From a virus, in IMG/VR virus record IMGVR_UViG_3300017963_000203, positions 1 to 64,000 of that record: a DNA stretch of 64,000 bases; one strand, written 5' to 3'. The notes below the pieces were generated by a model. It searched no databases. It had not been told where the DNA came from and saw nothing but the letters and a program-made list of their open reading frames with translations. Both the position numbers and the translations under genes were made by a program. Every line of letters starts with the position of its first letter. Within the stretch, counting starts at the first letter, position 1. Shown one piece after another: positions 31,782 to 51,889 of the stretch.

Positions 31782-32006
31782 TTACTTGTTCATCTTCTTG
31801 AGAGTCTCGGCGAGACGCGCCCTCTTTCCGAGCTTCCCCGGGGCCTCAGCCGCCCGAGCCAAGGTCTTGGCCGGAATCTTCTTCCCCTGGGGAATGCCGA
31901 GCTGCTTGTGGAGTGCTCCGGGCTTCTTGATCGCCCGCTGGATCCACTTGCCCGCTCCTTGCTTCTCCAATTCGTCGAAGAAGCCGTAGATGAAAGGTGC
32001 GCTCAT
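31782..32006 (-). CDS. Small basic protein with FxxGFxDELEK module
   Basis: 74 residues. It opens MSAPFIYGFFDELEKQGAG, one copy of the module that recurs in many late proteins here. The rest is Lys/Arg/Ala-rich and helical. ATGA overlap with the upstream gene. Unknown function; probably a virion or assembly protein. Confidence 0.75.
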   Translation of the reverse strand: MSAPFIYGFFDELEKQGAGKWIQRAIKKPGALHKQLGIPQGKKIPAKTLARAAEAPGKLGKRARLAETLKKMNK

Positions 32007-32338
32007 CGGTTCCTCCCGAACCAGGTCTTGACTCGCTGAACGAGTCCGGGTTTCCGTTGCCGGAACGACGCGTATCTGCGCCGCATAGGCTTCAGCGACT
32101 TGATCCGTTTTCCAACGTCGCTTGCCATGCTCTTGGCCGACTCCATCACGGACCCGGACTCGATTGGTTTTTCCTCAGAACCACCCCCGGGGGTGGGAAC
32201 TACTTCGACCTGCGGAGCCTTCGTGTAGCCCCTGTATACCTCTTTCAGTTTACTCTGAAGGTCTCGAAGTTCCTTCTTTCCGAAGAACGCATTCTTCTCG
32301 AGCTCATCCAGAAATCCTGTTATGAAAGCTTCGTTCAT
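32003..32338 (-). CDS. Basic protein with FxxGFxDELEK module
   Basis: 111 residues from ATG 32338, chosen because the module (AFITGFLDELEKNA) then sits directly at the N-terminus as in its neighbours. A Pro/Glu linker and an Arg/Lys-rich C-terminus follow. Overlaps both neighbours by ATGA. No family recognised. Confidence 0.75.
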   Translation of the reverse strand: MNEAFITGFLDELEKNAFFGKKELRDLQSKLKEVYRGYTKAPQVEVVPTPGGGSEEKPIESGSVMESAKSMASDVGKRIKSLKPMRRRYASFRQRKPGLVQRVKTWFGRNR

Positions 32339-33483
32339 CAGGCTGCCACGCCGCGACCCTGAATCTTCGCCGCGGTCCTCTTGGCCCACGGAATGGCTGC
32401 ACCCCACCCGCCACCGGGCGGCTTCGCTGCGGGAGGTGCGCCCACTCCTGCGCCGGCCGCAGCCCTGCCCAAGATGCCTGTGGGCTTCGACGGAGGAGTC
32501 CCGGTCGACGGTGTCGAGCCGATTCCCTTCGCCGCGCCCGCCATGACACCTGTGGGTTTCGCTGGCGCGCCGGCCGGACCGCCGCCGGGGCCAAACCTTC
32601 CGGCCGCGATGTTCCGTTCACGGATTTTTGCGCCTGCGGAAGCGACCGATGGAGCAGCGGGCTTCGCCAACGGTTTCGCCGGCGTGGCCGCATCGATCTT
32701 CCGGAACCTGGCCACGTCCTCACGGCCGCTGGCCCTCGCCGCGGCCCTGAGCTCGTTGCGACGCCGGATTTTCTTTCCGAGCGCAGCGAACGGATCGGCT
32801 TTCGGCTGGGCAGCCGCCGGAGGTGCCGTCTTCTTGGCCGCTTGAAGATCCTTCCAGCTCTTTGCTCCCCATCCGGACATGGGCCGGCTGCTGACCTTCT
32901 TTCCGGTATCGGCCACAGCCGGAGCCTTCTTGGGCTGCGCCACGGGAGGTGTGGCCTTCTTCGCTCCGATCTGGCGCGTGCCCACCCCCGGAATGGAGTA
33001 GGTGCCCTTTCCGGGCTTGCCCTTCCCCAGTCCGTGGCGCCCCATGATGCGCTTGGCACGCCCTGTCCGTACACGACCCACCGTGGCCTGGTCGGTTCCT
33101 TTGATGCGTCCGAAACGCAAGGAGCCGCCTTCAGCCGTGGATTTGAAGCCGCCGGTGCCTGTGGTCTTGCCGCCGGTGGCCAAGAGTTTCTTCGCGGCCG
33201 CCTGGCGAGCGCCGCCGATGCTGGCCTTGGCCCGGGACATGAACCGCTGCTTGGCCGCTCCGGAGAGATCCCGCCAGCCGGCGCTCTTCTCGAGCTCGTC
33301 GTAAAGGCCGGCGAAGAAGGCCTCCTCGAGGGAAGACATGGGGCCCTCTTCGTCCTCCGAAGCGAACTTGCTGAAGAACCCCGCCATGAAGATGTCCTCG
33401 GCGGTCGGTGCCGGGTCGGCGGGCGCGTCTGCCGCCTTCTCGAGCTCGTCCACGAGCCCACCCAGGAACACGTCGTAGTTCAT
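32338..33483 (-). CDS. Long basic Ala/Pro/Lys-rich protein with several module copies
   Basis: 381 residues. The N-terminal 75 residues contain VFLGGLVDELEKAA, IFMAGFFSKFAS and AFFAGLYDELEKSA. The remaining 300 residues are low-complexity Ala/Gly/Pro/Lys with many KK and RR pairs and look intrinsically disordered. This could be a DNA-condensing internal virion protein or a tail-associated protein. Function unknown. Confidence 0.75.
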   Translation of the reverse strand: MNYDVFLGGLVDELEKAADAPADPAPTAEDIFMAGFFSKFASEDEEGPMSSLEEAFFAGLYDELEKSAGWRDLSGAAKQRFMSRAKASIGGARQAAAKKLLATGGKTTGTGGFKSTAEGGSLRFGRIKGTDQATVGRVRTGRAKRIMGRHGLGKGKPGKGTYSIPGVGTRQIGAKKATPPVAQPKKAPAVADTGKKVSSRPMSGWGAKSWKDLQAAKKTAPPAAAQPKADPFAALGKKIRRRNELRAAARASGREDVARFRKIDAATPAKPLAKPAAPSVASAGAKIRERNIAAGRFGPGGGPAGAPAKPTGVMAGAAKGIGSTPSTGTPPSKPTGILGRAAAGAGVGAPPAAKPPGGGWGAAIPWAKRTAAKIQGRGVAA

Positions 33484-33492
33484 GTCGGCCTC

Positions 33493-36400
33493 TTAGATGT
33501 AGATGTAGACCTCGCCCTCGGCCGCGGAGACGTACGGGGTCACGCGGCACTTGATGATGAAGGTGTCCGGACGGTCCGGATCCTCCTCGATGCTCAGGAG
33601 CACGACGTCGCGCAGCTCCTTGTTCTGCTCGACCACGTCCTTCCGGACGGCCTCGAAGTTGTTGCTCACCAGGTCGAAGAAGGGCTCGTCAATCACGAAG
33701 GGCCCGAGCAGCGGCTTGAGCTGGCTTCGCAGCTTCCTGGCGAACGAGTCCACCTGGACCGCCACGTTGTCCTCGGCCTTGTAGATGTCGGTGACGTCCG
33801 TGGAGAGCGCCCGGATGGCGTAGGGTTCCAGGTCGTCGCCGTCGTGGATGATGTAGTAGTTCCCGCCGTCGATGATGATGTCCTGGTAGGCCTCGATGTC
33901 CCCCATGGGATCCAGGATGCGGTAGATGGAGCCCCTCTTGAATCCGGTCAGGGGCTGTTTGGGGTTCTCGTTGGACCGCTTCCCGGCCTCGATGACGGTG
34001 AGGTACTCGGCCCCCAGAGTGGCGATCTGGTCGCCGCCCCCGAAAGGCCCCGTAGTGGCGTCCTCGCCCGCGATCTCGTCCGTGAACCGCATCATGACCG
34101 TATCGGGCCAGATGTTCCGGAAGCGACGGTTGGGGATGCTCTGGGCGTAGGCCGCCTGCTGGTTGGCTCGCTCGAGCAGCGAGAGATTCTTGCTCTTGAT
34201 GTCCCACGAACTCGCGGTTCCGCTCGACGGAGAGGGCACCGTGGGGTCGGCCACGATCCGCATGGTGCTTTGCCCCGACGCCGGTGTGGATCCCTGGATC
34301 GAGATGATCCTGGCGTTGGTGATCGGGTAGTCCGTCGTTCCGTCGTTGAGCGTGCCATTGAAGACGTCGCCCACGACCACTCCGTAGCTCGTCAGATCAC
34401 GAGTGGTGGAGACGACGGTGGTGATCCCGGTGGCCGTCTTGCCGTAGGTGACCGCGTCGCCCAGACTCTCACTCGTACGCGTGGTCTGCACGACCTCCTT
34501 GTGGGAGAAGTAGGTGATCCGCTCCCGCTTCTCCTCGGGCTCGCTCATGAGCGACACGTGGGTCCGCAGGAGGGCCAGGACATCCTCCCTCTGGGTGAGG
34601 ACGATGGGGATGTAGACCTCGTCGCTCTCGGCGACCGTCAAGCCGTCCGTCCAGTCGGCCACGGTATCGTCCGTGACCTGGATGGCGAAGGCGCTCGCGC
34701 CCAGAACCGTGAAGAGAGTCTGGGCAGCCAGGGCCAGATCGTTGCCGGGGACCGGCGCCCCCAGAATGGCCTCGAAGTTGTTCTCGTCGATGGGCACCCG
34801 CTGGTTGAGGAGGTCGTTCCTCTTGGCCGCGTAGGTGCACAGGACGTCTCCCTGGAGAGGCGACCCGGTGACCGTCTTCTTGATCCGGTAGTTGATGTCC
34901 TGCCCCGTGTCGGGGAAGGTGACGGCGTTGATGAAGAGGCCCGCGTAGGCTCCCGCACCCGGAGACCCCACCAGCTCGTTCTTGACCGTGAGCTGTGTGT
35001 CCGAGTCCACCGAGATCACCTCGAGGATCGCGGCGTTCTGGTCCAGCACGTTGAACGCGAAGCGCGTGTCGCTCGCGGAGGCCGGGGGGTTGCCCGGGAT
35101 GATGTTCACCACGTCCAGCGTGCCTACGCCCGCCGGGTGCACCGTCACAACGGTGAAGAGCGTAGTCCCGGTGACTACGTCCTGGATCCAATCCCCCGGG
35201 ACCACCCCGGCCGTCGCGAAGTCCACGCCAGCGGCGGTGATCCGACGTTCGGTCGGACCGCCAGCACCGGTGCCCTCGGCGAGGTAGGAGCCGGCCGTGT
35301 TCCCCGTGATGCTGGTCGGCGTCCTGATCTCGTAGGAGACGAAGGACGGGTTGATGGCGGTGGCGGTGGGATTCGGATCGGTGCTGTCGTGCTGCGACAC
35401 GACCAGTTCCGTGGCTGAAGGCACCCCCTGAACGATGAAGATCGGCGGGTTCCCCACTCCCAGGTACGGGGCCGGTCCCGCCAGGTTGTCGATGATGATT
35501 TCGTCACCGATGGCGATCGGCGTAGCGAGAAAATTGGCCGTAGCATCGTGAAAAATCCTCTGACCGGCAGGAGGCGCGGGCTGTCCCCACGCAGCGACAC
35601 CGTCAGCGTCGTACTCACCAACCAGGGAAAAGATCCCTGGACCGAGATTCTTGGGCGCGCCGTAGCGCACAATGTCGTAGGGGACGCCAACGGCCGCGGC
35701 CGTCAGAGCCGGATTTGGCACCGGCAGCGTGACGATGTTCTCGCAGTCGTCGATGAGGATTTCGCTCGCCACGCTGTTGACCAGGAAGAAGGGAACCCAG
35801 TCTCCCAGAGCGTCCGCAGAGAAGATGATGTCGTTGGCGAGCACAGGACCCGCGGTGATGAAAAGAGCGGCCGCATCGGAGAAGGACCGACTCGTGGCCG
35901 GCGCTCCCGTCCCCGTCCCCACCGCTCCGTAATCGCCGCCCAGGACGCTGATGATGGCGTCCCAGCCGTCGATGGTGCACAGGTCGCCCACGTCCACACC
36001 GTTCTGCTCGAACTGCTGGTTCGAGCTGCTGAGGATGCGGAAACCGTAGGCGTCCTCCGCGCCGAGAACGGCGTCGGGCACCAGAGGGGTCACGGCCTTG
36101 TTCCGGCGCACCACGTCGAGCTGGCTGTCCGAAATGATGTTCACCACGTCGAAGGACGGGTAGTAACTCCCGTCCGAATGAAGCGTCTCGATGACGTCGT
36201 TCGTGGCGACCTCGGCGTCGATGAAGTCCTCCTCGGCGTCGGTGAAGTATCCCGACACGGCCGAATAGGCTCCGTCTTCCCCTTCCACGATGGTGAAGAC
36301 CACCGAAGCTCCGGCCGCAATGTCGAAATGCGGCGGGTCGGCCACGAAGTCGTAGGACAGGTCCGGTGAGAGGACCTCGCCCAGGCCGTAGTTGTTCGAG

Positions 36401-36669
36401 ATGAAGACGTGCGGCTCGAGGACGTCCGGGAACTCGAGAACATCCAGGACGGCTCCGGGCTGCTCCACCGTCGAGCCCGCGATGAGGTCGGGGAAGTAGT
36501 AGCGCTGGCCCGGCTGACCTCCGACGAAGGAACCGGCGTTTCCGCGCCAGACGAACTGGCGGTTCAAGCCGATGAGCGCCACAGGGAGATTCGTCGCGGG
36601 CACGATGGGTGCCTGCGTCTCGAAGATCTGGAAGACCGTGATGTCCGGTCGAAGGCCGCTCAGTGCCAT
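33493..36669 (-). CDS. Very large tail-sheath-like protein
   Basis: 1058 residues. The N-terminus (LRPDITVFQIFETQAPIVPATNLPVALIGLN) has the membrane-free beta start of contractile sheath proteins. The C-terminal 150 residues hold the helical/strand block FFDLVSNNFEAVRKDVVEQNK...RPDTFIIKCRVTPYVSAAEG, like the conserved sheath end. Typical sheaths are 400-700 residues; here the middle is expanded by repeated beta-rich domains that could decorate the tail surface. Supports a contractile-tailed phage. Homology inferred by pattern only. Confidence 0.6.
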   Translation of the reverse strand: MALSGLRPDITVFQIFETQAPIVPATNLPVALIGLNRQFVWRGNAGSFVGGQPGQRYYFPDLIAGSTVEQPGAVLDVLEFPDVLEPHVFISNNYGLGEVLSPDLSYDFVADPPHFDIAAGASVVFTIVEGEDGAYSAVSGYFTDAEEDFIDAEVATNDVIETLHSDGSYYPSFDVVNIISDSQLDVVRRNKAVTPLVPDAVLGAEDAYGFRILSSSNQQFEQNGVDVGDLCTIDGWDAIISVLGGDYGAVGTGTGAPATSRSFSDAAALFITAGPVLANDIIFSADALGDWVPFFLVNSVASEILIDDCENIVTLPVPNPALTAAAVGVPYDIVRYGAPKNLGPGIFSLVGEYDADGVAAWGQPAPPAGQRIFHDATANFLATPIAIGDEIIIDNLAGPAPYLGVGNPPIFIVQGVPSATELVVSQHDSTDPNPTATAINPSFVSYEIRTPTSITGNTAGSYLAEGTGAGGPTERRITAAGVDFATAGVVPGDWIQDVVTGTTLFTVVTVHPAGVGTLDVVNIIPGNPPASASDTRFAFNVLDQNAAILEVISVDSDTQLTVKNELVGSPGAGAYAGLFINAVTFPDTGQDINYRIKKTVTGSPLQGDVLCTYAAKRNDLLNQRVPIDENNFEAILGAPVPGNDLALAAQTLFTVLGASAFAIQVTDDTVADWTDGLTVAESDEVYIPIVLTQREDVLALLRTHVSLMSEPEEKRERITYFSHKEVVQTTRTSESLGDAVTYGKTATGITTVVSTTRDLTSYGVVVGDVFNGTLNDGTTDYPITNARIISIQGSTPASGQSTMRIVADPTVPSPSSGTASSWDIKSKNLSLLERANQQAAYAQSIPNRRFRNIWPDTVMMRFTDEIAGEDATTGPFGGGDQIATLGAEYLTVIEAGKRSNENPKQPLTGFKRGSIYRILDPMGDIEAYQDIIIDGGNYYIIHDGDDLEPYAIRALSTDVTDIYKAEDNVAVQVDSFARKLRSQLKPLLGPFVIDEPFFDLVSNNFEAVRKDVVEQNKELRDVVLLSIEEDPDRPDTFIIKCRVTPYVSAAEGEVYIYI

Positions 36670-36670
36670 G

Positions 36671-37342
36671 TCACTTCACCTCATGGATTGGTTCATCCTC
36701 CCCGGGAAGGAAGAACTGGTACTCGAATCTGCCGAACCTCAAGGACTTCTTCACCACCCACCTGCTCGCCTGGTCCACGACCATCGAAACCGGGGTCAGG
36801 AACAAGTCGGCCTGTGAATCCGCCTTCACAACGATCGGCGCGCCCACTCTCGGGTCGCTCAGTTTCTGGACGTTGATCCGTTTCCGGATCTCCTCCTTGA
36901 AGTAGCGAATCAGACCTGTGACCGCCCAGGCCAGGTCCTCGGACTCTGTGTCCCGTCTCGAGATGCAGTTGAGGATCACGGGCATTTCGGTCATGTCCGC
37001 GTAGGTCTTCTTCTGCCCCAGGTACGAGACCGTGTTCTGCTTGCCACCGATTCCCAAGTTGAGGAAACCGAAGTCGCCTCGGCTCACGATGATCATGGGC
37101 CTCGGCTCCGTTTGCTCGAGCTCATCCGAGTAGGTGTCCGCCAAGACGAGCTTCGAGGCCGAAGAGATCTCCCCTTTCTCGAAGTCGAACACGAAGAGGA
37201 ACGGGTTCTTCCCGTCCAACAGCTCCGGCTCCGAGAAGGCACTCGCGAGGATCTGGAGGAGCACGCGCCGCGGGTACCGCAGAGGGTTGCCCACGGGCGT
37301 GGTCAGATCCTTTACCTCCGGAGTGCCAAACTTGGTCGTCAT
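36671..37342 (-). CDS. Probable tail or neck protein
   Basis: 223 residues, ATG 37342. Alpha/beta sequence (PFLFVFDFEKGEI, MIIVSRGDFGFLNLG) without cysteine clusters or enzymatic motif. Encoded directly before the tail-sheath-like gene, separated by one base, in the place of tail terminator or completion proteins. No family recognised. Confidence 0.65.
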   Translation of the reverse strand: MTTKFGTPEVKDLTTPVGNPLRYPRRVLLQILASAFSEPELLDGKNPFLFVFDFEKGEISSASKLVLADTYSDELEQTEPRPMIIVSRGDFGFLNLGIGGKQNTVSYLGQKKTYADMTEMPVILNCISRRDTESEDLAWAVTGLIRYFKEEIRKRINVQKLSDPRVGAPIVVKADSQADLFLTPVSMVVDQASRWVVKKSLRFGRFEYQFFLPGEDEPIHEVK

Positions 37343-37346
37343 GGGC

Positions 37347-37640
37347 CTACTCCAAGCCGAGGAGTTTCCTCGCGATGGGCACCCACTCGTCCGCCGTTTT
37401 CTCGAGCTCGAAGTTGACCCCGGCCTTGAAATTGGGGTCTTCCATGATCTGCTCGACCGGCATGGAGGTGAGCGACGCCACCTTCTGGAGGCCCGGGAAG
37501 ACGTCCTGCACGTCGGCGTCGAGCCGGCCCTGGGCCTCGAGCTCCGCGCCTCGTGCGGAAGCGAGCTTCTCGGGGTCCGCCCCCGTGATGGCGATGAGCT
37601 CCATCTGGAGCCTTTCTTCCGCCGTCATTTCTCCGTTCAT
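37347..37640 (-). CDS. Small helical late protein
   Basis: 97 residues. All-helical and acidic. It contains LQKVASLTS and FELEKTADEW, relatives of the K-x-A motif seen through the late operon. No family recognised. Confidence 0.7.
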   Translation of the reverse strand: MNGEMTAEERLQMELIAITGADPEKLASARGAELEAQGRLDADVQDVFPGLQKVASLTSMPVEQIMEDPNFKAGVNFELEKTADEWVPIARKLLGLE

Positions 37641-37649
37641 GGCTTGCTC

Positions 37650-38102
37650 CTATCCAACGTCGATGACCGTGAGGGGAGGCTTCACAACTCTGAAGGAGAT
37701 GGGCTCGTCCATCTTCTTCCGGGCCAGATGCGCTCCCTTCTCCACGAAAGCCTTCCCGGGAGTCCCGGGGAACTGCCATTTCCCTTCAAGGATCGACTTC
37801 AGGGTCACCTTTCGGAAGACCGTCGTTCCTGAGAGTTTTATCGGCACCACCCGGTTTATCAAGTTCCACATGATGCGCGGCCGGCTTCCTTTATCCACCT
37901 CTTCGGCGTACGGAGCCGAAGAAACCACCCGGATTGTTCGGGGACCGATATCCTGTATGGAGATGCTGTCCGCGAGATTCCCTGTGGGGCTCTTGCATAC
38001 ATTCCGAATGGCATCCGAAATCCCCGGCTTGAGCCGCTCCTTGAACTGAGCAATGGCCTCCTCAGAAGCGTCCTCGTCGATAATGATGATGGCCAGTGAC
38101 AT
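37650..38102 (-). CDS. HK97 gp10-like tail-completion/neck candidate
   Basis: 150 residues from ATG 38102. The core SISIQDIGPRTIRVVSSAPYAEEVDKG and the later GTPGKAFVEKGAH resemble the gp10/minor-tail fold of neck proteins (Y-A-x-x-V-x-x-G...P). ATGA overlap upstream. The position between capsid and sheath genes agrees. Confidence 0.6.
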   Translation of the reverse strand: MSLAIIIIDEDASEEAIAQFKERLKPGISDAIRNVCKSPTGNLADSISIQDIGPRTIRVVSSAPYAEEVDKGSRPRIMWNLINRVVPIKLSGTTVFRKVTLKSILEGKWQFPGTPGKAFVEKGAHLARKKMDEPISFRVVKPPLTVIDVG

Positions 38103-38344
38103 CAGTATTTGAGTTTCTTTCTGATGAACGTGGTGATCGCCTTGGGGGGTCGAATCCGCATGGCTTCGGCCCAATCCTTGACAGAACCGGGCCCGGATTC
38201 GTCGTCTGTCTGCGGCTTCACAGCCTCCACTCTGGCCTTGTCCGTTGTGCCTATACCCCGTATAGCCATCTTCTGCGCCTTACGGAGTTTGTCGAGGCTC
38301 ATCTTGACGGAGGCTCTCTGGATTGAATCTCTGAACAGGTTCAT
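38102..38344 (-). CDS. Small basic hypothetical protein
   Basis: 80 residues, helical N-half (RDSIQRASVKMSLDKLRKAQKM), basic C-terminus. ATGA overlaps on both sides. No family recognised. Confidence 0.65.
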   Translation of the reverse strand: MNLFRDSIQRASVKMSLDKLRKAQKMAIRGIGTTDKARVEAVKPQTDDESGPGSVKDWAEAMRIRPPKAITTFIRKKLKY

Positions 38345-39333
38345 GCGACCACCACGATGAAATCCACGTCTTCCGGATCCTTTCCCTCCTGATCTTCTTC
38401 AGGCGTCGTTTCGTAGTCCTGGACGACGGGTCGCTGCGCGTACCGCCTGTTGTCTCGCCACTCCCTGATTACGGGGGTCAGGTTAGACGGGATGGGGAGT
38501 TTGTGCTCGATGTCCCCTGTGTTCAGCTCGATCATCTGGAGATCTTGGTGAATCGTGACTCGATGATGCTCCGTCGGAGACACGCTGACCAGGCGCCACC
38601 GCTTCCCCGTGTTCACCTCGTAGATGAGATCCCTGGGGCTTACGATGGGGAGGAAGCTGCACATACCGGTAGTCTGAGAAACCTGACGCAAGGTGTCCCC
38701 TGGCTCATTGACCTTGGCCACAGGATTGATCTTCACCTGGGTCAGGATGGGAGAATAAAAGCCCCCGAGGCGGCCTGTGTTAAAACAGCGCGGGCACGTG
38801 GACGACATGACCTTCTGTAGTACCGGGTCCCAGCAGTCTGGGCACCTTTCGCCCTCTCCACGTCGAACGTAGATCAGGCAGGGTACACCCTCGAAGCGGA
38901 GGGCGATGTCTGTCCTTCTTCGCGTTGCAACCGTTTCAAGAGTAGGTTGCGACGCTACTCCAAATGCCTCGCTCTCGTCAACGCTGCCGTCCGGACTTGT
39001 TACTCGCAGCTTGTAGTAAACCTCCCGCCACTTGTCCCGAATTAGCGCGCCCGAATCCCGGAAATACTGCTGTGTTCCCGGCACGTCTGCGATGGATTCG
39101 AACGGACCTTCGGAAGAGTATCCGCGGAAGACTGTAACGGCCGTCTGATCGAGATCCTCGTTGGTGGGTTGAATCCACCACGACACGATCACCGCCTCTC
39201 GGCTGGCGATTTCCACGAACACTGCGTGCTCGAGTGTCTCGAGTTTATCGATCCTGACCATGTCACAAGCCACAGGGCGCGCCTCAGCCCAGATACGGAA
39301 GGCCACCTCGGGGAACAGCGGGGTGACGCACAA
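38341..39333 (-). CDS. Fibronectin-like plus zinc-knuckle virion protein
   Basis: Up to 330 residues; TTG 39333 abuts GGAGG and ATG 39261 is a shorter alternative. The first half looks like a fibronectin/Ig-type beta sandwich (EIASREAVIVSWWIQPTNED...YYKLRVTSPDG). The middle has CPDC...CPRC, a zinc-ribbon pattern, and the rest is beta-rich with an acidic tail. Similar Cys-containing proteins occur in phage necks and baseplates; role uncertain. Confidence 0.65.
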   Translation of the reverse strand: MCVTPLFPEVAFRIWAEARPVACDMVRIDKLETLEHAVFVEIASREAVIVSWWIQPTNEDLDQTAVTVFRGYSSEGPFESIADVPGTQQYFRDSGALIRDKWREVYYKLRVTSPDGSVDESEAFGVASQPTLETVATRRRTDIALRFEGVPCLIYVRRGEGERCPDCWDPVLQKVMSSTCPRCFNTGRLGGFYSPILTQVKINPVAKVNEPGDTLRQVSQTTGMCSFLPIVSPRDLIYEVNTGKRWRLVSVSPTEHHRVTIHQDLQMIELNTGDIEHKLPIPSNLTPVIREWRDNRRYAQRPVVQDYETTPEEDQEGKDPEDVDFIVVVA

Positions 39334-39348
39334 CCTCCGCTGTCAAAC

Positions 39349-39978: not shown

Positions 39979-39988
39979 TCCGCTCTCC

Positions 39989-41494: not shown

Positions 41495-42045
41495 GACGCC
41501 TCCTTTGATCTCCTCGTGAGATGAGCGAATTGAATCGAGCCACTCAGGAGTCCCTTCGCCTTTGGGACATCCGTCGTGCGTTTCTTGCCCGATACAAGTT
41601 TACGCCCGGTCTCGAGACGAAGGAACGGATTCTTTCTGAGGACCGGGCTTTTCTTCACGTTGGGATCCAGAAGCATCTTCGCGCCGGCGGCAAACTTGTC
41701 GAGGTACGATGCCTTCTTCTCCTGGCCCGTTCTTCGACGACCCTGGAGCCACTGCTGGATCTTACGACCGAGCAGCGCGCCCCCAATCGTGCCGCCCAGG
41801 GCGCCAATCCCAGGAGCGATTCCTGACGCTCCGGACATGCCTCGACGTGCGAGCGCGTCACCGACAGCACTCCCGGCAAGGCCGCCACCGATCATCCCTG
41901 CTGGAGCGAGGGCTGCACCCGGAAGACCTCCGACAGCGCCACCGCCACCAGCACCCAGGCCGAGGAGCATCATCAGTTCGATGAGCGTGAAGCCCTTCTT
42001 CTCGAGCTCGTCCTCGAAACCTTGCAGGAAGGCGGTCTTCTTCAT
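41491..42045 (-). CDS. Probable internal-start product: module plus Gly/Ala hydrophobic protein
   Basis: 184 residues if translation starts at ATG 42045. The module AFLQGFEDELEKKG then sits at the N-terminus, as in the proteins at 31.8-33.5 kb. It is followed by FTLIELMMLLGL, which resembles a type IV prepilin processing site, and about 80 residues of Gly/Ala/Leu that could span or associate with a membrane. The C-terminus is basic. The same frame is shared with the upstream nucleotidyltransferase-like part, so this is an alternative rather than an additional reading frame. Confidence 0.4.
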   Translation of the reverse strand: MKKTAFLQGFEDELEKKGFTLIELMMLLGLGAGGGGAVGGLPGAALAPAGMIGGGLAGSAVGDALARRGMSGASGIAPGIGALGGTIGGALLGRKIQQWLQGRRRTGQEKKASYLDKFAAGAKMLLDPNVKKSPVLRKNPFLRLETGRKLVSGKKRTTDVPKAKGLLSGSIQFAHLTRRSKEAS

Positions 42046-42837: not shown

Positions 42838-44028
42838 TTACACCACGGCCGGCAGCGCCGCCTGGAGGTTGTCGTTGATGATGGTGAAGTTCCCGGCCGA
42901 GGCCGTGACGCCCGCGGGCGTCTGGAACGTCACCGGCAACGTCATCCTGGCTCCCTTGAGCAGGATGGCGCCGAGGGCGCGGATGTTGCCGAAGCCGGCC
43001 CCGACGTCCTCCCAGGCCTCCATCTCGATCCAGCGGCTCCGCTTGTCGATGAAGAACTTGGTGTTCTCCAGGACCATGAAGCGGCCGATGAACTCGGGGG
43101 CCGGGAACACGTAGATGACGCCCGGCTCGACGAGGTCGTCGTTGTCCCGGATCGTGGTCACGAAGGTGTAGCCGCCCACGGTCGTGTACTTGTACCCGTC
43201 GCGGACGATCTCGCTCGTGATCTCGAGGCCGGCCTCCGTCAGCGACCACGCGACGGTGTCGGTCCAGGTGACCTCGTGGAGGAGGAAGGTACGCGCCTTC
43301 TGCTGGCGCGCGGCGGGGATCTTCACGAGGTCCTTCAGGACCACGCGGTTCCAGTCGTCCTCGTCGGAGAGGATGATGTTGGAGTAGATCGCGTCCGCCC
43401 GGTTGAGGTTGGCCGTGGGAATCGGGGCCCACGCGCCGGCGCCCTTGGCCCTCTGGAAGAGGAAGCGCATGAACTCGGCCTGATCGCCGAAGTTCCTCGT
43501 GCCGCCGGCGACGACGCCGCGCTGCACGAGCTTGTTGTAGTTGTACCGGGTGCCCAGGAAAAGCCCCGACTTCACGTGCTGCATGAACGTGAAGTCCTCC
43601 TGCTCCTGGATGTCCTTGGCGATGTTCTGCTCCAGGATCTTGGTGAGGGGCATGCGGTAGGAGCGGAGCTCCTGCTCGGACTTGATGATCTTGTCCGAGG
43701 AGATCGTGTGAAACACGATCTTGTACCGCGGAGCCTGGATGTAGGTCTTCTCCGGCTCGCCGCGCCAGTTGATGTGCATGGCGATGGAATCCGGCTCGAG
43801 GTCGTCGATGTACTCGAGACCTTCGTCCTCGATCCTCCGCTGGCACTCCTTCTCCGTCACGACCTTCGGAGGCAGGATCTTGCGGCAGAAAGCGTTCTCA
43901 CGGAGCTTCTGCTGGATGTACAGGCCGCTGGCCTGTCCGAGCTTCGTGAGCGCCTCGCCGCCGACCTCGAGGGTCTGCCCGAACAGCGTGTTGAACTGCT
44001 CGGCGTTGAACGCGCCCGTATCCGACAT
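42838..44028 (-). CDS. Probable major capsid protein
   Basis: 396 residues, ATG 44028 after AGGAGGAACTGAC. HK97-fold major-capsid features by pattern: helical N-terminal arm, a long charged spine helix (MPLTKILEQNIAKDIQEQEDFTFMQHV), E-loop/A-domain strands and a closing GAGFGNIRALGAILLKGA segment. It is followed by a dedicated terminator and preceded by scaffold-like and decoration-like genes, the normal capsid order. Length fits a 400-residue capsid protein. Confidence 0.75.
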   Translation of the reverse strand: MSDTGAFNAEQFNTLFGQTLEVGGEALTKLGQASGLYIQQKLRENAFCRKILPPKVVTEKECQRRIEDEGLEYIDDLEPDSIAMHINWRGEPEKTYIQAPRYKIVFHTISSDKIIKSEQELRSYRMPLTKILEQNIAKDIQEQEDFTFMQHVKSGLFLGTRYNYNKLVQRGVVAGGTRNFGDQAEFMRFLFQRAKGAGAWAPIPTANLNRADAIYSNIILSDEDDWNRVVLKDLVKIPAARQQKARTFLLHEVTWTDTVAWSLTEAGLEITSEIVRDGYKYTTVGGYTFVTTIRDNDDLVEPGVIYVFPAPEFIGRFMVLENTKFFIDKRSRWIEMEAWEDVGAGFGNIRALGAILLKGARMTLPVTFQTPAGVTASAGNFTIINDNLQAALPAVV

Positions 44029-44092
44029 GTCAGTTCCTCCTATTGAGAACCTTTCTCCCGGAACCCTACTTCACCGTCGAGACAATCGCGGC

Positions 44093-44623: not shown

Positions 44624-44645
44624 GGCTTTTCACTCCTTCTGATTT

Positions 44646-45035
44646 CTACCCGATGACACCCCGATCGAGGAGATCGCTGAAGCAATCCGCAATCGGGTTT
44701 TTGCCACCGCTCTTGGGCTGTGACTCGGACACCGGTTCTCCCAGACGGGTCTCGAAACGATCGATCCCCAGTTCGTGTGCCGATTTGGTGACTTGAAACC
44801 TCATGGGATCGGCCATGAACTCCGCGACCTTGTCAGTCGCATCGTTCGGGTCGATCTGGCCTTCGGCGATGAGTTGCAGCACGCCCTTTGTGATCTCCAG
44901 TTCCTGTTGAATGGCTGCCACCTTTTCCATCGCCTCCTGGGCCTTCTCTTCGGCGGTCTTGACCAGGACTTCCTGATTCCTCAGTTTGTCCCGAATCCTC
45001 GCCGCCACCTCCGTATCCAGAACGACTTTGCCCAT
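44646..45035 (-). CDS. Coiled-coil late protein (scaffold-like)
   Basis: 129 residues from ATG 45035. A long heptad helix (about 10-70, EVLVKTAEEKAQEAMEKVAAIQQELEI) is followed by a polar tail. The size and helix content fit a scaffolding or assembly protein. Adjacent to other acidic helical genes. Confidence 0.65.
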   Translation of the reverse strand: MGKVVLDTEVAARIRDKLRNQEVLVKTAEEKAQEAMEKVAAIQQELEITKGVLQLIAEGQIDPNDATDKVAEFMADPMRFQVTKSAHELGIDRFETRLGEPVSESQPKSGGKNPIADCFSDLLDRGVIG

Positions 45036-45036
45036 C

Positions 45037-45279
45037 TCACGGTTCCAGTGAGACCAGGGCGTCGAGAGCCGCAAGCCATCCGGCCATTGTCAGGTCCTCA
45101 CGACGCTCCAGGTACGCCTTCTTTTCCAGCCCCCGCTGAACCTCGGAGTTCCCCATGGCGTCCGTCAGCGACCCGATGACCTCGTCGAGATCGGGGTCCG
45201 CCTGTGCTTCCTTCCGGAAGCGCTCCCTGGACCGGGCTTTGATCTGGTCCAGGGCTGACTGAACAGCCGCAACGTCCAA
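45037..45279 (-). CDS. Small helical late protein
   Basis: 80 residues from TTG 45279, with GAGGAG six bases upstream. Helical; contains LEKKAYLERRED, a K-x-A motif variant. No family recognised. Confidence 0.65.
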   Translation of the reverse strand: MDVAAVQSALDQIKARSRERFRKEAQADPDLDEVIGSLTDAMGNSEVQRGLEKKAYLERREDLTMAGWLAALDALVSLEP

Positions 45280-45282
45280 GGG

Positions 45283-45756
45283 TTACTCCTCCTCGGCGGA
45301 TTCCTCGCCGAGCTCGAGCAGGATGTTGGCCGCCAAGCGGCCGAGCTGCTCGGATTCCTCGTCCGAGGCGACCTTCTCCAGGTCCTCCTCGGAGATGCCC
45401 GCCATCTGGAGGGCCTCGCCCGCGAGGGCGCCGAGCTCCGCGAGCTCTTCGGCGGCTTCCTTGGAGAGCTCTTCTTCGCCCTCCTCGACGCCCGCCGTCT
45501 TCTCCTCGCCCCCTTCGGGCTCGGAGTGCGCCGCGATGTGCTCTTCGACCAGTTGGGCCGCGGCCGACAGCATGCCCGAGTCGGACATGGGGGCCACCTC
45601 GCCGTTGGCCTCGGCCACCTTCAGCAGGTCGACAGCCTCGTCGAGGAGCTGCTGGCGGAGCTCGTCGCCTTCGTACGCGGCTTCGATGGCCGCGAGCTTG
45701 ACGTTGAACTCCTGCTGGTCCAGGGCCTGGACGATGTCGCTGAGTCTCGTCTCCAT
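45283..45756 (-). CDS. Acidic scaffold-like protein
   Basis: 157 residues, extremely Glu/Ala/Leu-rich and predicted all helical. Contains EEKTAGVEE, LSKEAAEEL and LEKVASDEE. Composition and place upstream of the capsid gene suggest a scaffolding core component, perhaps cleaved during maturation. No homologue recognised. Confidence 0.65.
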   Translation of the reverse strand: METRLSDIVQALDQQEFNVKLAAIEAAYEGDELRQQLLDEAVDLLKVAEANGEVAPMSDSGMLSAAAQLVEEHIAAHSEPEGGEEKTAGVEEGEEELSKEAAEELAELGALAGEALQMAGISEEDLEKVASDEESEQLGRLAANILLELGEESAEEE

Positions 45757-45787
45757 CTCGTTCTTCCTCCTGGATGTCTTTCGGTCA

Positions 45788-45807
45788 CTCCTCGACTGTT
45801 CGAGGAG
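45788..45807. promoter_or_regulatory. Perfect inverted repeat between late genes
   Basis: CTCCTCGA-CTGT-TCGAGGAG, an 8-bp stem with tetraloop in the 94-base gap between two scaffold-like genes. It has no T run, so it is not a standard terminator; it could be an RNA-processing or mRNA-stability hairpin. Confidence 0.35.
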
Positions 45808-45850
45808 AGTCTCACACCGGGCGAACGGAGATCAATCCCGGGAAGGCGAC

Positions 45851-46270
45851 TTAGCCTCCGCGGGTCTCCGCCGGGTTCGGGTTCTTGGACTGCGGGGGAG
45901 CCACCGCGCCGTAGGTCACGTTGGGGTTGGCCCCCTCGATCTTCTTCTCGGTGACCCCGCCGCCCCCGGTCTCGCCGATCGTGGCGCCGGCCGGCCCCGC
46001 GCCGTGGCGCTCCTGGACCTTCTTGGCCACGTTCTTGAAGACCGACTGGTCGTTTTCGGGGTTGGCCTGGGAAGACTCGACGGTGCCGCCTTCGGCCGCC
46101 GTCTTCTTGAGTTCCGCGACGAAGCCCTTGGCGAACATGCGCCCGCCGGCGAAGAGGTCTTCCGCGACCTTCATCATGGGATCGTCGGCCTTGCCGGCGG
46201 AAGCGTTCTTCTCCAGGCTCCCGTCGGTCTCGAGTTCCTCGAGCAGACTGTCGATGTTGATGCCGTTCAT
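45851..46270 (-). CDS. Late protein with module-like segment
   Basis: 139 residues. Acidic helical start (NIDSLLEELETDGSLEKNAS), then MFAKGFVAELKKTAAEGG, a variant of the recurrent module, then a Gly/Pro/Asn-rich disordered end. Unknown function; gene order suggests capsid assembly. Confidence 0.7.
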   Translation of the reverse strand: MNGINIDSLLEELETDGSLEKNASAGKADDPMMKVAEDLFAGGRMFAKGFVAELKKTAAEGGTVESSQANPENDQSVFKNVAKKVQERHGAGPAGATIGETGGGGVTEKKIEGANPNVTYGAVAPPQSKNPNPAETRGG

Positions 46271-46283
46271 GTCGAACGCTCCT

Positions 46284-47819
46284 TCAAACCTTTTTCATCT
46301 TCAACCCGACCAGGAAAGGCGTCACCGGCCGGAACCTGTCACTCGCAGTTTTAATCCCCGCCAAAGCATTTTCAACCGCGTCGGGGTCACGAATCAGCAA
46401 AGTTTTCTCTGCTGCTTTCACCAGGTCTTCGACATCCAGTCGCCCGAGTGCTTCCAGGTACTTGTCGTAGACTTCGCTTGCCCCCTTGTCAAGAGCCGCC
46501 CCCGGCTTTGGTCCTGAGATTCTTATAATCCTGACCACGCGTTTGGCAAATGGCGGATCAAACAAACTCCTGCTCGGGATCAACTCTTTGAACTTCGATA
46601 GGAGTCTGGGGAGTACTGAATCCAAGTCAAGTCGTTCCGGAACTTTCTCCGAGTCTCCCTCTGTGATGATCTCCACTTCGGGTTTCTTGAGAAGGATACC
46701 CGATGCTGTTGCGCCGTTAAAGATTTCCTCCGGAGACATCGTTTGGCGCATCGATTTGAGGGACACGGCCGGAATGCACCTCGACGCGTTGTCATCCTCT
46801 TTCACGAGGTTCGAGAGGATTTTCTGTGCCTTCGGCTTGAGCAGAGTCTTGCCGAGATTGTCCTGGCCAGGTTCGGCTGGGACTTCTTTGCTGATCTCGC
46901 CAAGCTTGAAGATCGTTCTTTTCTTTCGCATGGATTCCTGCGCCGAGGCAACCTTCACGAAGTCGACACTACGAATGGTGTAATCTTCGTGACGTTGGAC
47001 AACCGTGGGGTCGGCTGTTGGAAGATGAACGCCGGCGACTTTTCGAAGGGAATACGCTGGAGCGAATGCTGGCGTGATTACTCTCGAAATATCGAAGAAC
47101 CTCGGGAACCAGTTTTCTGCCGCGACCTTTCTTCCGTCTGGAAGCGTGACGTTCAACAGCGTCCGAAGATGCTCACAGTACTGGTTCCGATTCTTCGCCA
47201 CATTCTTGCAGATGGAGCAAACGTCGAACGCGACCTTGCAACCCATGGACCACGGAATGGGCTCACCACGGTCGATCATGCCCACGAGATCCGGGGCGGA
47301 AAGACCAACGCCGTCCCTTGGTGGATCCTTTCGAATGAAAACGATGAGCTCTCCGCGGCGCATCTTCTCGTTGTATGCCGCGCAAATCACCTTCTCCCCG
47401 ATGGAGAACTTCGGGTCTTTGTTGTTGTGAAGGACGAACGGGTAGGCATAAGTCTCGAAGGTGCTGATACCGTACTCCGGAGGAATCGGACGGCCGGTCT
47501 TTCTGAGGAACGCCTGGATGTCCGGAGGGGGCGGCTCATGAAGGAGAGACCACTCCCAGAAGCTGTCGCCGTTCTTGTTGCTCCCCCATGCCTCGGTAGC
47601 ACCCACGGCGTTGATGTGCACGTATCTACCGTCTTCCCTCGGAGAGAGGGAGGCCGCAGCTTTGATGAGACGCTCCGGAATGTAGACCTCGGACGCTGTC
47701 TTCTCGAAGACGCGCGAATGGATCGGGAGATAGGACGGGCCCCACCTGGCATCGTATGCGGGGGCCACGTGCTTCTCCATCTCCGGAGAGAGGATCAGAT
47801 TTGCTCTCTTGTCGATCAT
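46284..47819 (-). CDS. Possible prohead protease or related core protein
   Basis: 511 residues, ATG overlapping the upstream stop. The central part has SMGCKVAFDVCSICKNVAK...YCEHL, a Cys/His cluster that I associate with phage head-maturation core proteins, followed by ENWFPRFFDISRVITPAF. About 200 helical residues with several K-x-A motifs (FEKTASEV, LIKAAASL, IKTASD) complete it. Placement just upstream of scaffold and capsid genes fits a prohead protease. A catalytic triad cannot be assigned by eye. Confidence 0.5.
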   Translation of the reverse strand: MIDKRANLILSPEMEKHVAPAYDARWGPSYLPIHSRVFEKTASEVYIPERLIKAAASLSPREDGRYVHINAVGATEAWGSNKNGDSFWEWSLLHEPPPPDIQAFLRKTGRPIPPEYGISTFETYAYPFVLHNNKDPKFSIGEKVICAAYNEKMRRGELIVFIRKDPPRDGVGLSAPDLVGMIDRGEPIPWSMGCKVAFDVCSICKNVAKNRNQYCEHLRTLLNVTLPDGRKVAAENWFPRFFDISRVITPAFAPAYSLRKVAGVHLPTADPTVVQRHEDYTIRSVDFVKVASAQESMRKKRTIFKLGEISKEVPAEPGQDNLGKTLLKPKAQKILSNLVKEDDNASRCIPAVSLKSMRQTMSPEEIFNGATASGILLKKPEVEIITEGDSEKVPERLDLDSVLPRLLSKFKELIPSRSLFDPPFAKRVVRIIRISGPKPGAALDKGASEVYDKYLEALGRLDVEDLVKAAEKTLLIRDPDAVENALAGIKTASDRFRPVTPFLVGLKMKKV

Positions 47820-48787
47820 CCGAACACCGTGGTCACTCGAGGTATAGCCACACTCGCCGTATTGGTCATTCCAGTGAGGGGCGCAGGTTGTGGCGCCGCC
47901 GCCGGGGGTGCAGCGGTCGGCATCTTCAGTCTACCGCGTTCCGCTCGCCGCATGAGAACATTTTGCAGGCGGGGGATGCCAGCCGACTCCTGAAGGATCC
48001 CAGGGAGCCCCTGCATCGCGATGAGCGGGAGCACACCGCCCAAGATCGGGCTGCGAACCCCCAGCCCATACATGATGGGTTCGATAGCGCTCATGGCAGC
48101 CATCTGGAGGAGCATGCTCCCCCAGGGGTTGTTCACGATCTTCGCCCACGGCCCCACCTTCATCCCCTGCTGCTGGGCGACGCCGAGAGGGTCGGCCTCC
48201 ACCGCCTTCTGCTGTCTGAGAATACTCTGGAACTTTTTCTGAGTAATTGGGGCCTGACTCGGTCTTGCTGCCTTGGGCACAGCAGGAGTGCCGGGCTTGG
48301 GAACCTTGAGCCCCGCCTGAAACTTCTTCCACATCGCCTCGCCACCCGGGACAGCCGATCCCGCTGGCTTGGACACGACAGGAGCCTTGGGCGGAGTGGC
48401 GGTCAGCCCCTTCAACCAATCGAGAGCCCCGCCCTCCTTGGATAGAGCATCCGTTCCATCCCCGACGAGGCTCACGTTCGTGTCGCCCCACTGTGGGATC
48501 GCTCTTGTGGAAAGAATTTTGTACTTGGATGCTTTCCGGCGCGTTGGTTTGACGCCGCCACCACGGACCACCTTGTCTCGGAGAGATCGGTCGTTAGCCT
48601 GGGCCTTGAGACCGATGCCGCGTAGGATCTCTTGGCGCTCCTGACGTGCAGGCGAAGGAACCTTGCGACCAGCTCCGGACTCGTACTCCTCTTGCGCGGA
48701 GATCTCGCTGGAGCCCTGAGCCTCGGGCTTGCTGAGCGTTGCGGGCCCGATTCGCCCGCGCCACGTGACCTGCATTCCGTCGCGCAT
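47816..48787 (-). CDS. Virion candidate with hydrophobic C-terminal region
   Basis: 323 residues from ATG 48787. Basic, Pro/Ala/Lys-rich for 200 residues. Then comes a hydrophobic helical stretch of about 50 residues (MLLQMAAMSAIEPIMYGLG, ILGGVLPLIAMQGLPGIL) and a Pro/Ala tail. Could be an internal or membrane-interacting virion protein. No family recognised. Confidence 0.65.
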   Translation of the reverse strand: MRDGMQVTWRGRIGPATLSKPEAQGSSEISAQEEYESGAGRKVPSPARQERQEILRGIGLKAQANDRSLRDKVVRGGGVKPTRRKASKYKILSTRAIPQWGDTNVSLVGDGTDALSKEGGALDWLKGLTATPPKAPVVSKPAGSAVPGGEAMWKKFQAGLKVPKPGTPAVPKAARPSQAPITQKKFQSILRQQKAVEADPLGVAQQQGMKVGPWAKIVNNPWGSMLLQMAAMSAIEPIMYGLGVRSPILGGVLPLIAMQGLPGILQESAGIPRLQNVLMRRAERGRLKMPTAAPPAAAPQPAPLTGMTNTASVAIPRVTTVFG

Positions 48788-48799
48788 GCGTCTTCCGAT

Positions 48800-49729
48800 C
48801 TACTTGCTGCGGCCCGGGGTTCTTGCTCGCGCACTCCCACCACGCATCTCGATGATGGTCGGCGCGTGAATGGTCGTGCCTTTCTGCCTCGGCCCGAAGT
48901 TCTTCGCCACGTCGAGCATGGTGGTGGCCATTTGGTTGACCTGGCCCTGGGTGGTGCGCTCGATGTTTCCGCTCTGATTCTCGATGTCGAGCAGCTCCTT
49001 GATCATGCCCGGCTGGATGAGATCCGGGCCTGTCTCGTGCCACCGCTTCATGAGATTCCCCGCGAGAATCGGATTCTGGGCCACGTGCGGGGCGAAGGTC
49101 GTGAGAATCTGAAAGTAATGGCCCACGTTGGGGTCGTTCCTCAGCTCGGGATGCTGTCGGAGGATCCTGGTGAGCGAGTTCTTCAGATTGCCTGACTGCG
49201 TGATGGCTTTCACACCGGAGGCGATGACCGGAGCGGCGACGCCGCTGAGGGCCATGGCCGCCATGATCGGCTGCCAGTTCTTTCCCCACCACTGACCGCC
49301 TCGGACGATGCCTCCTGGCTTGCCAGGAGTGCCCTTGCCATGCCACGTGTACTTGGTGCCCCTACCAACTCCTCGACCCACATCCTTCAACGCCTGGAGC
49401 ATCTTGTCTGCGATGCCGGCAGTCTTCTCGATGTGAGGGGACAATTTCTCGAGAGCCGAGAACGCCTCCTTCGTGATGTGCCGGTCGACGGCCGCGCGCT
49501 CGTGGTCTTCTCCACGGAAAGCGATATAGGTGGTGACGCGGCCGATCTTCTCGATGAGATCGTCGGACGCGTAGGCCAGGTGCTGCTCGACGAGGCGCGA
49601 CATGCCCTCACGATCCCCAGCCTGGGCGCATTTCAGCATCCCGGCCACGAACTTGCCGATCTCCGCGCGCTCGTCCTCGTTGAAGTTCCGCTCGTTGTAA
49701 AGCGCAGCGAATTTTTCGAAGATGGACAT
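48800..49729 (-). CDS. Helical late protein with membrane-like segment
   Basis: 309 residues. N-terminal helical region (FEKFAALYNERNFNEDE, EIGKFVAGMLKCAQ), IEKTAGIADKM motif, a Gly-rich linker, a short hydrophobic segment (IMAAMALSGVAAPVIASGV) and a basic end. No family recognised; virion protein likely from context. Confidence 0.7.
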   Translation of the reverse strand: MSIFEKFAALYNERNFNEDERAEIGKFVAGMLKCAQAGDREGMSRLVEQHLAYASDDLIEKIGRVTTYIAFRGEDHERAAVDRHITKEAFSALEKLSPHIEKTAGIADKMLQALKDVGRGVGRGTKYTWHGKGTPGKPGGIVRGGQWWGKNWQPIMAAMALSGVAAPVIASGVKAITQSGNLKNSLTRILRQHPELRNDPNVGHYFQILTTFAPHVAQNPILAGNLMKRWHETGPDLIQPGMIKELLDIENQSGNIERTTQGQVNQMATTMLDVAKNFGPRQKGTTIHAPTIIEMRGGSARARTPGRSK

Positions 49730-49738
49730 GGTAAACCT

Positions 49739-50992
49739 CTACATCTGGAAGGGCGGCGCGTAGGCCTGGTTCCCGTAGAACGAGCCAACCGGGGCCTGCG
49801 GCCCTTGGACCTGAGCCTCAGGACTCCACCCTGCCCGGCCCTCACGCCCGAACGCGCGCCCGAAGCCTCGACCCACCGCCTTGAGAATCGAAGGACCGAA
49901 GAGGAGGGCAGCCAGAAGTGGAACCCCACCGCCGACCATGGCCGTACCCTTTCCCATCCTCCAGGCCTTGCCCAGGACACCGGACTGCTTCACGGGCGCC
50001 TTGGTCGCCGCCGCGATCTTTCGGATCTCGACAACCTTGTGGAAGAGGTCCTCGTCCGCCATGCTCGACGCCTTCTTCGCCAGGTTCTCCACCTCCGACA
50101 TCAGGTACTCCTGCGTGTCCAGGTTGTCGGTGAAGGAGTTCGTACCGACTTCGACCGGGTCCGGAGCGTCGTTCAGCATCTGGATCGCTCCTCGAACGGA
50201 GTCGGTCTCGCTGATTTTCTTCCGGAAGGTATCGAGGTCCACCTGGAATGCGTGGCGCCCGTTGATGACCTGCCACTCGCCGTTGGGGATCTCCACGTTC
50301 TGCGCGAGGATCTTCTTGTCCACGGGATGGCCGAGCTTGGTCAGATCGTCCTTGACCGCCTCGAAGACCTTGAGCCAGAGCCGATCGTTCCCTGGGAACG
50401 CGGCGCAGGCGTACTTCATGAGATCCTGAATCTCGCCGCCGTCGAGAAGGACGTGGTTTCGCGCTTCCTCCCGAATCTTGGCGTAGGCCTTGTGCGTGGC
50501 GTCCTCTGATGCCTGCTTCTGGAGGGCCAGCTCACCAACCCTCTTTCGAAGCTCAGAGAGGACGACACCGGCGCTGTGCTCGGCGCGCTTCTCCATGAGC
50601 TCCTCGGCTTCCTTCACGAACGGACGCGCGCTGGCGACCTTCTCGATCCCCTCGAGAACGGTCTGCTTGAAAGCGGACTCGTCCCGCATGGGCTCGAACA
50701 CGGACATGACAGAGGCCGTTTTCACGGTACTGGCCTTGTCGGGATGCAGGATTGCCTGCACGCCGGCCAAGGATGCCAACGGGAAAGTGAACGTCTTGTC
50801 GCCAGCGGTCTTGAACAGACGCTCGTTGGCATCCAGATTCGTGAGCTCCACGACTCTCTGGATCTGGACCGGCGAGAGATTGTTCTTCTCGGCGAGCTTC
50901 GCGATGGTGTCGTTGAGTGGCACGTTCTTCTCTACGAACTGCTCCGAGGCCATCTTGGCGAAGTCGGCGAAACGGATCGGATTGATATCCAT
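49739..50992 (-). CDS. Large helical late protein rich in K-x-A motifs
   Basis: 417 residues. Helical throughout (FADFAKMASEQFVEKN, EKVASARPFVKEAEELMEKRA, LAKKASSMAD). Near residue 340 is a hydrophobic Gly-rich stretch (MVGGGVPLLAALLFGPSIL), and it ends Pro/Gln/Tyr-rich. Not recognisable as portal. Probable virion component. Confidence 0.7.
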   Translation of the reverse strand: MDINPIRFADFAKMASEQFVEKNVPLNDTIAKLAEKNNLSPVQIQRVVELTNLDANERLFKTAGDKTFTFPLASLAGVQAILHPDKASTVKTASVMSVFEPMRDESAFKQTVLEGIEKVASARPFVKEAEELMEKRAEHSAGVVLSELRKRVGELALQKQASEDATHKAYAKIREEARNHVLLDGGEIQDLMKYACAAFPGNDRLWLKVFEAVKDDLTKLGHPVDKKILAQNVEIPNGEWQVINGRHAFQVDLDTFRKKISETDSVRGAIQMLNDAPDPVEVGTNSFTDNLDTQEYLMSEVENLAKKASSMADEDLFHKVVEIRKIAAATKAPVKQSGVLGKAWRMGKGTAMVGGGVPLLAALLFGPSILKAVGRGFGRAFGREGRAGWSPEAQVQGPQAPVGSFYGNQAYAPPFQM

Positions 50993-51001
50993 GATCCTCT
51001 C

Positions 51002-51889
51002 CTATCTGATGGATCCCGAAAGCGACGTCTTCCCGATCTGTTTCGAGATCGCGGCCGGCCCCTCTCCCTTCGGGATCGGGCCGATGATCTGCTTTCGGAT
51101 GGCTTTGCTTCTCTTCAGCCGCGTCTGTAGATTGCCGTTTGGAGGGCCCGCCACCCTCTGGTTTGGGGCCATCTGAGGGGTTGGCATCTTGGGTCTCATG
51201 CTCTTCGGGAGAGACGCGCCAACCTTGTCAAGCTCGTCCAGGAAGCCGTCCAAGAAGGCTTCAGCGGCGCTCTTGCGGAAGAACTGGCTCACCCCGGGGA
51301 CTTTGACGCCCTTCGAGATTGCCGACCGACTCCGCGAAAGGGCCCTCTCGGAGAACCCGCCCTTCGGCGCCAGACTACTGGGCAACTTGGTCTTGGCCAT
51401 GACCACCCGTGGAATTCTCTCTCCCTTGGGTCCGGTGGTCTCCGGGTACACCTCTTTCACAGAGACCTTGCCCCCAAGACGATGCGCTCGCTGAGCAGAT
51501 TCACGCTCGACTGGATGCCAACCACCGCTCCTCAACTTCTTCCCCTGCTGCATGAAGCTGGAGAGTCCGCTCTCGGCTTCCTTCTCGATACCGGCGAGAA
51601 ATCCAGCGGTAAACGCCTCCTCCGCCTGCTTGATGGTGGAGTTCTTAGCCCTCGTCATGAAGACGTTCTTGTTGATCTTGGGCTCCTCAGGGCCTTTCAC
51701 GCACTTTCCACTGTCGAAGGTCAGCTTGTTGGGCTCCTTGCTTGGAAGGTCCGGCTTCTCCTTCGAGTCGTGACTCGGCGCTCCCTGAGAGGCGTTGACG
51801 TCGGCTTGAGACGGAAGAACGCCGCCGGCCCCCAGCCGATCCTCTGCCATCTTGGCGAATCTCGCCAGAAGATCCTCGTAGGTGATCAT
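51002..51889 (-). CDS. Late protein carrying two copies of the module
   Basis: 295 residues from ATG 51889 (GGAG seven bases upstream; a TTG at 51904 is less likely). AFTAGFLAGIEKEAESG in the middle and AFLDGFLDELDKVGAS further on are module copies. Basic Pro/Lys/Arg-rich regions surround them. No family recognised; located between terminase and head genes. Confidence 0.7.
   Translation of the reverse strand: MITYEDLLARFAKMAEDRLGAGGVLPSQADVNASQGAPSHDSKEKPDLPSKEPNKLTFDSGKCVKGPEEPKINKNVFMTRAKNSTIKQAEEAFTAGFLAGIEKEAESGLSSFMQQGKKLRSGGWHPVERESAQRAHRLGGKVSVKEVYPETTGPKGERIPRVVMAKTKLPSSLAPKGGFSERALSRSRSAISKGVKVPGVSQFFRKSAAEAFLDGFLDELDKVGASLPKSMRPKMPTPQMAPNQRVAGPPNGNLQTRLKRSKAIRKQIIGPIPKGEGPAAISKQIGKTSLSGSIR

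Follow-up and report, generated by a model that had tools for sequence, protein, structure and literature searches.

A recurrent peptide tag on unrelated late proteins of a large uncultivated phage suggests a head-targeting propeptide with a lysine-type processing site

The first 64,000 bases of the 130,894-bp virus record IMGVR_UViG_3300017963_000203 (bases 1-64000, hereafter the window) contain a series of late genes whose otherwise unrelated products share a short peptide module, in several cases at the N-terminus. This tag is bipartite, with a helix-like head followed by a C-terminal site, PHI-x-K-x-A, in which PHI stands for L, M, F or I. The same site is found in the major capsid protein, in the predicted head maturation protease and in the presumed core proteins of this phage and its relatives, and the module is therefore probably a head-targeting propeptide: it would recruit proteins to the prohead, and the phage protease would cut it off at PHI-x-K-x-A. 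A first-pass annotation of the window had proposed either an address tag or a site for shared binding or cleavage; our results suggest that the module is both, a recruiting head joined to a site shared with the head proteins. This reading fits all of the findings and held out-of-sample in related phages, while packaging, cleavage by the protease and the identity of the tag reader are steps that we infer.

Occurrence of the tag

Genes were called with our own codon-usage script in the window and four further stretches of the genome, and gene starts are those called by the script. The calls comprised 95 plus-strand genes of replication or early type and 65 minus-strand late genes, the latter including terminase, capsid, sheath-like and tail-type proteins and RNA polymerase. 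All of the copies listed in the first-pass annotation were recovered on the minus strand and in the open reading frames (ORFs) given for them (Table 1). A motif search over the window and these stretches added a copy in g43, six N-terminal tags outside the window (g84, g85, g86, g140, g144, and g146) and four copies in the 946-residue g153, also outside the window. The g43 copy may be due to chance, as K-x-A is missing from its ortholog in the related genome G008. For 6 of the 10 internal copies scored in this genome, another K-x-[AG] lies no more than 12 residues before the module; the g62 copy at 51575-51613, outside this set, has IKQA before it. The position of the g57 module is constant among homologs, with a looser sequence in the distant ones. 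The opening F-x-x-G-F of the motif as first described proved not to be strict, and the core conserved among relatives is [AG]-F-x-D-E-[LM]-x-K-x-[AG].

The enrichment over shuffled late proteins that the address-tag proposal called for was pronounced: a strict tag pattern, F..G[FLYVI]..E[LI], occurred 16 times in the 65 late-strand proteins, where shuffles gave 0.15 on average. It occurred 0 times in the 95 early-strand proteins (0.19 expected from shuffles), and none were found in the reversed late proteins.

Unrelated bodies of the tagged proteins

Alignment of 71 tagged proteins from nine related genomes yielded the consensus M...F...F-x-D-E-L-x-K-x-A and almost nothing else. Nearly all of the families matched by these proteins were matched by one member each, and they included SET, HNH_3, DUF6321, 3D/peptidase, and many unknown PHROGs. 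In this phage and its relatives the tag stands on at least a dozen unrelated late proteins; SET-domain, HNH, and DUF6321 proteins are among the putative cargo. With the tags masked, similarity between bodies was limited to orthologs in different genomes and one pair of paralogs in G002, which bears out the earlier claim that the tagged proteins are otherwise unrelated. Identical codons at shared residues of the tag copies numbered 645 where 602 were expected, and therefore the copies are not recent DNA duplicates.

The junction between tag and body is visible in individual families. The body of g38 matches the 59-position phrog_20603 from residue 20, directly past the tag, and the g38 ortholog G008_76 retains a tag, MFYEAFADEMQKLG. 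Three genomes encode a g85-family protein with the same body (PGAPKGHPDWK...) directly after K-x-A, and one of the three has an insert of ~40 residues that again closes with KKIA.

Some of the tagged proteins have features of their own. The tagged g146 (L004:13473-14294) has a SET domain (4.9e-7) and may be an enzyme that is packaged to modify proteins. The g153 product (L005:2588-5428) combines four internal modules with a rubrerythrin-like domain and DUF5661 and looks like a polyprotein of tagged units. DUF6321 makes up the body of the tagged protein G002_51 (L016:14222-14524); elsewhere, eight PHROG families that vary widely in length carry it at the C-terminus, and it is therefore a mobile end domain.

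The site in the capsid protein, the protease and the presumed core proteins

The g52 product matches the 'major capsid protein' of the Salmonella phage Arash, whose 'structural protein' labels were also taken from its database record. A K-x-[AGS] was present in the capsid N-termini of 27/27 distinct sequences, 4-8 residues ahead of the aromatic residue after which [KR][LI]RE of the N-arm follows. Several of the scanned loci were near duplicates, for which reason each distinct N-terminus was counted once, and the test was out-of-sample in that 18 of the 27 came from a scan that postdated the definition of the motif.

Upstream of the capsid gene, in a head cluster whose neighbourhood is alike in Arash, lies g58. 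All nine aligned members of its family match phrog_18299 (head maturation protease), the best at 3.8e-7 and g58 itself weakly, at 2.2e-4. H131 and S191, the candidate catalytic residues, are invariant in the nine, as are K40 and A42; these last two belong to a PHI-x-K-x-A site, although conservation of the N-terminus is otherwise poor. The gp19 of phage G has GLVKTAA at a similar position. In the related genome G006, the protease gene (L031:4278-6887) contains an intein with a LAGLIDADG domain.

The presumed head-core families comprised g54, g56, g57, g58, g60, g61, g66, and g88 with their homologs, a label based on gene position and site density and not on an annotated homolog; a Pfam search of g57, g58, g60, g61, g66, and g88 gave no match. 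K-x-A was the most enriched spaced pair in these families (273 vs 88 expected, with 76 for the reverse, A-x-K), and [LMFI]-x-K-x-[AG] occurred 209 times where 30.6 were expected (z score 33), an excess inflated by selection because the families were picked for their richness in K-x-A. That selection does not explain the contrast between Lys and Arg, the flanking logo or the conservation test. The Arg version of the site was at its expected frequency (20 vs 20.5), the logo [GDE]-[LMFI]-[EV]-K-[TVI]-A-[SCGEA] is that of the end of the long tag, and at aligned positions the whole motif was retained in 44% of sequence pairs as against 9% for K..A. The known Glu-type protease rules were set aside, their enrichment in the core families being nil or marginal (L/I-x-E, z 2.7, the highest; A-x-E, z 1.5; S-x-E, z 0.5).

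Distribution among related phages

The presence of the motif in relatives, expected of a functional tag, was borne out by the tagged proteins of the nine related genomes. At the DNA level, the pattern F-x-D-E-L-x-K-x-[AG] occurred 14 times in G002, 8 in G001, 7 in the present genome, 7 in G014, 4 in G013, 2 each in G003 and G008, and once in each of three more genomes. It was confined to a single strand in every genome, and the reversed pattern was found nowhere in them. In G014, fetched afterwards, 16 of the 56 proteins on the plus strand, which carries the capsid gene, were tagged and 0 of the 74 on the minus strand. For newly fetched loci with at least 10 capsid-strand genes, the site was ~2 to 5 times as frequent as in shuffles on the capsid strand and mostly near background on the opposite strand, where few genes were called.

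Tags were more alike within genomes than between them (2.15 vs 1.36 of 7 positions, permutation p ~0.001, with one paralog pair contributing), which is what a separate reader in each phage would predict. A relative of the capsid protein was sought in bacterial and archaeal genomes; none was found in those scanned, and hence this search gave no clue to the host.

Proposed mechanism and alternatives

The ending of the tag recurs in the capsid protein, the predicted capsid protease and proteins of the inner core, and the tag itself therefore probably directs proteins into the head as it grows. We propose that the head of the tag, F-x-x-[GA]-F-x-D-E-L, would form an amphipathic helix that a prohead partner encoded by the phage recognises; candidates for the partner are the core proteins g54, g56 or g57 or the interior of the capsid shell. 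This recognition would load unrelated late proteins into the prohead. The end of the tag, PHI-x-K-x-[AG], would be a processing site for g58; during maturation this protease may, besides releasing the cargo from its tag, act on the propeptide of the capsid protein, on itself and on the core proteins. By P3-P1 analogy with the L/I-x-E of T4 gp21, the scissile bond would fall after K; it may instead lie after A.

Several observations weigh against this proposal. The structural model of g58 is poor (predicted local distance difference test score, pLDDT, 41) and unfit for a fold search, and a sequence search of the PDB with the protease profile gave no match. Arash and the Vibrio phage D69 form a branch that has the site and lacks the long tag, so that the site has the wider distribution and is perhaps the older of the two. 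Avoidance of the site was sought in folded late proteins (capsid body, terminase, portal, sheath, and RNA polymerase) and none was seen (38 vs 37.3 expected). The g61 model is helical (pLDDT 58, too poor for fold searches) and places some sites within confidently predicted helices, which a protease would need to unfold, and g61, g66, and g88 have 8-12 sites each, so that full cleavage would shred them. The last three of these points would favour a binding motif only, in which tag and site are short helices that dock uncut on a common head partner, the many sites per protein suggesting multivalent docking. We nevertheless consider binding alone unlikely, as the N-terminal sites of the capsid protein and protease lie where related systems remove propeptides (PMC9026906), the bodies of tagged proteins start directly past K-x-A, and flanking preferences over about eight positions resemble a protease subsite pattern.

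That tags occur on proteins of unassigned function would also allow a target other than the head, such as the tail tip, the host membrane, the nucleoid or the phage RNA polymerase; this seems improbable to us, as the ending recurs in the capsid protein, head protease and core proteins and the tags differ by phage, which argues against a host reader. It is very hard to credit that the copies are gene-duplication remnants of one small gene family: several tagged genes do adjoin and G002 has its paralog pair, but the copies also occur inside long proteins, the tagged proteins match one family per member, and the otherwise unrelated masked bodies, with codons as different as usage predicts, largely refute duplication. 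K and A are abundant in the late proteins, but chance or composition can be ruled out with near certainty, since shuffles, the reversed pattern, the Arg version, and the other strand were all at background.

Beyond head targeting and removal of the tag in this phage, we suggest, with somewhat less than even confidence, that a large uncultivated phage group (records of ~95-200 kb) may use a genome-wide loading code, in which a phage-flavoured tag of 10-13 residues and a Lys-type maturation site would direct the packing of at least a dozen unrelated proteins in each phage, SET-domain and HNH proteins among them, for delivery into the host. It usually takes virion proteomics to learn which phage proteins travel in the head and enter the host; if the tag serves as an address, cargo could be predicted from sequence, and the predictions tested, for many uncultivated phages. 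The tag would further offer a cargo-loading peptide ready for use, and the head proteases of this clade would follow a site rule unlike those of T4, phiKZ, and SPN3US.

Feature coordinates and other observations

Table 1. Tag copies, sites and head genes in the window
Feature	Position	Strand	Remark
N-terminal tag FIYGFFDELEKQG of g38 (ORF 31782-32006)	31956..31994	-	
N-terminal tag FITGFLDELEKNA of g39 (ORF 32003-32338)	32288..32326	-	
Internal copy FFAGLYDELEKSA of g40	33280..33318	-	
Loose internal copy FMAGFFSKFAS of g40	33358..33390	-	PHI-x-K-x-A ending retained
N-terminal tag FLGGLVDELEKAA of g40 (ORF 32338-33483)	33430..33468	-	
Internal copy FKAGVNFELEKTA of g43, doubtful	37392..37430	-	absent from the first-pass annotation
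Internal copy FLQGFEDELEKKG of g51	41992..42030	-	KKTA precedes; retained in G005_4 as FFRGFTHEIEKKG
g52, major capsid protein	42838..44028	-	phrog_2522, major head protein, 6.4e-6
Site LTKLG, end of predicted g52 N-terminal propeptide	43936..43950	-	
g54, presumed core protein	44646..45035	-	family K-x-A 20, expected 3.6
g56, acidic presumed core/scaffold protein	45283..45756	-	five K-x-A, 0.7 expected; several retained in homologs
Module FAKGFVAELKKTA in g57, small protein beside protease gene	46097..46135	-	
Site MMKVA in g57	46163..46177	-	retained in most homologs
Site LEKNA in g57	46202..46216	-	K-x-A retained in 6/6 aligned homologs
g58, predicted head maturation protease	46284..47819	-	phrog_18299
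Site FEKTA near g58 N-terminus, possible self-cleavage site	47694..47708	-	K40/A42 invariant, nine members
g60, site-rich late protein	48800..49729	-	family 24, expected 10.8
g61, site-rich helical late protein	49739..50992	-	11 sites, 3.7 expected
Internal copy FLDGFLDELDKVG of g62	51218..51256	-	RKSA precedes
Internal copy FTAGFLAGIEKEA of g62	51575..51613	-	IKQA precedes
g66, site-rich late protein	55332..56879	-	12 sites, 4.3 expected

Elsewhere in the window, ARAGORN identified a transfer-messenger RNA (tmRNA) gene at 24398-24759 (+) with the tag peptide ANPNTGSFTAPLAAVA. The ORFs directly after it, at 24626-26091 (+), encode stretches that by eye resemble C2H2 zinc fingers, e.g. FKCNLCHKEFETERSLNSHRAWH, which is unusual for a phage. 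A protein of 1888 residues at 58318-63984 (-) is matched over its length by several PHROGs of the RNA polymerase beta subunit and has homologs in all of the fully read relatives.

Comparison with known systems

Our literature search, which left subscription papers mostly outside its reach, found no description of this tag or site. The capsid-targeting sequence (CTS) of T4, carried by IPI-IPIII and Alt and processed by gp21, is similar in being a short N-terminal peptide on unrelated cargo that ends at a protease site found also in the capsid and core proteins, with several sites per core protein (PMC9026906). Of IPIII, the first 10 residues are the part required, and gp21 cuts after L/I-x-E, reducing the core proteins to fragments (PMC9026906). 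The present tag differs from the T4 CTS in its dissimilar sequence, in the PHI-x-K-x-A site in place of L/I-x-E, and in having some internal copies and more tagged proteins per phage.

The proteases gp245 of SPN3US and gp175 of phiKZ likewise belong to large phages and remove N-terminal propeptides at a short motif of P3-P1 type. The head proteases of T4, phiKZ, and SPN3US, however, all cut after Glu (PMC5694885, PMC10052503), and the A-x-E and S-x-E sites cut in SPN3US and phiKZ are not enriched here, where the conserved residue is Lys. The SPN3US propeptides are mostly long, and the same two papers describe no common tag. The capsid-localisation signal of DarB in phage P1 is N-terminal and sends the protein and a reporter to the capsid (PMC9024508), but it belongs to one protein in P1, whereas the signal here is common to many unrelated proteins.

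Arash, D69, and the Bacillus phage G (compared over 24 kb around the protease) have a homologous protease with an N-terminal PHI-x-K-x-A. Arash and D69 share the site in the capsid N-terminus as well, within GLVKEAGAAM and GLTKEAGAAM, respectively, and neither phage has the long tag. The encapsulin cargo-loading peptide, by contrast, is C-terminal on its cargo, and the tags described here are N-terminal or internal.

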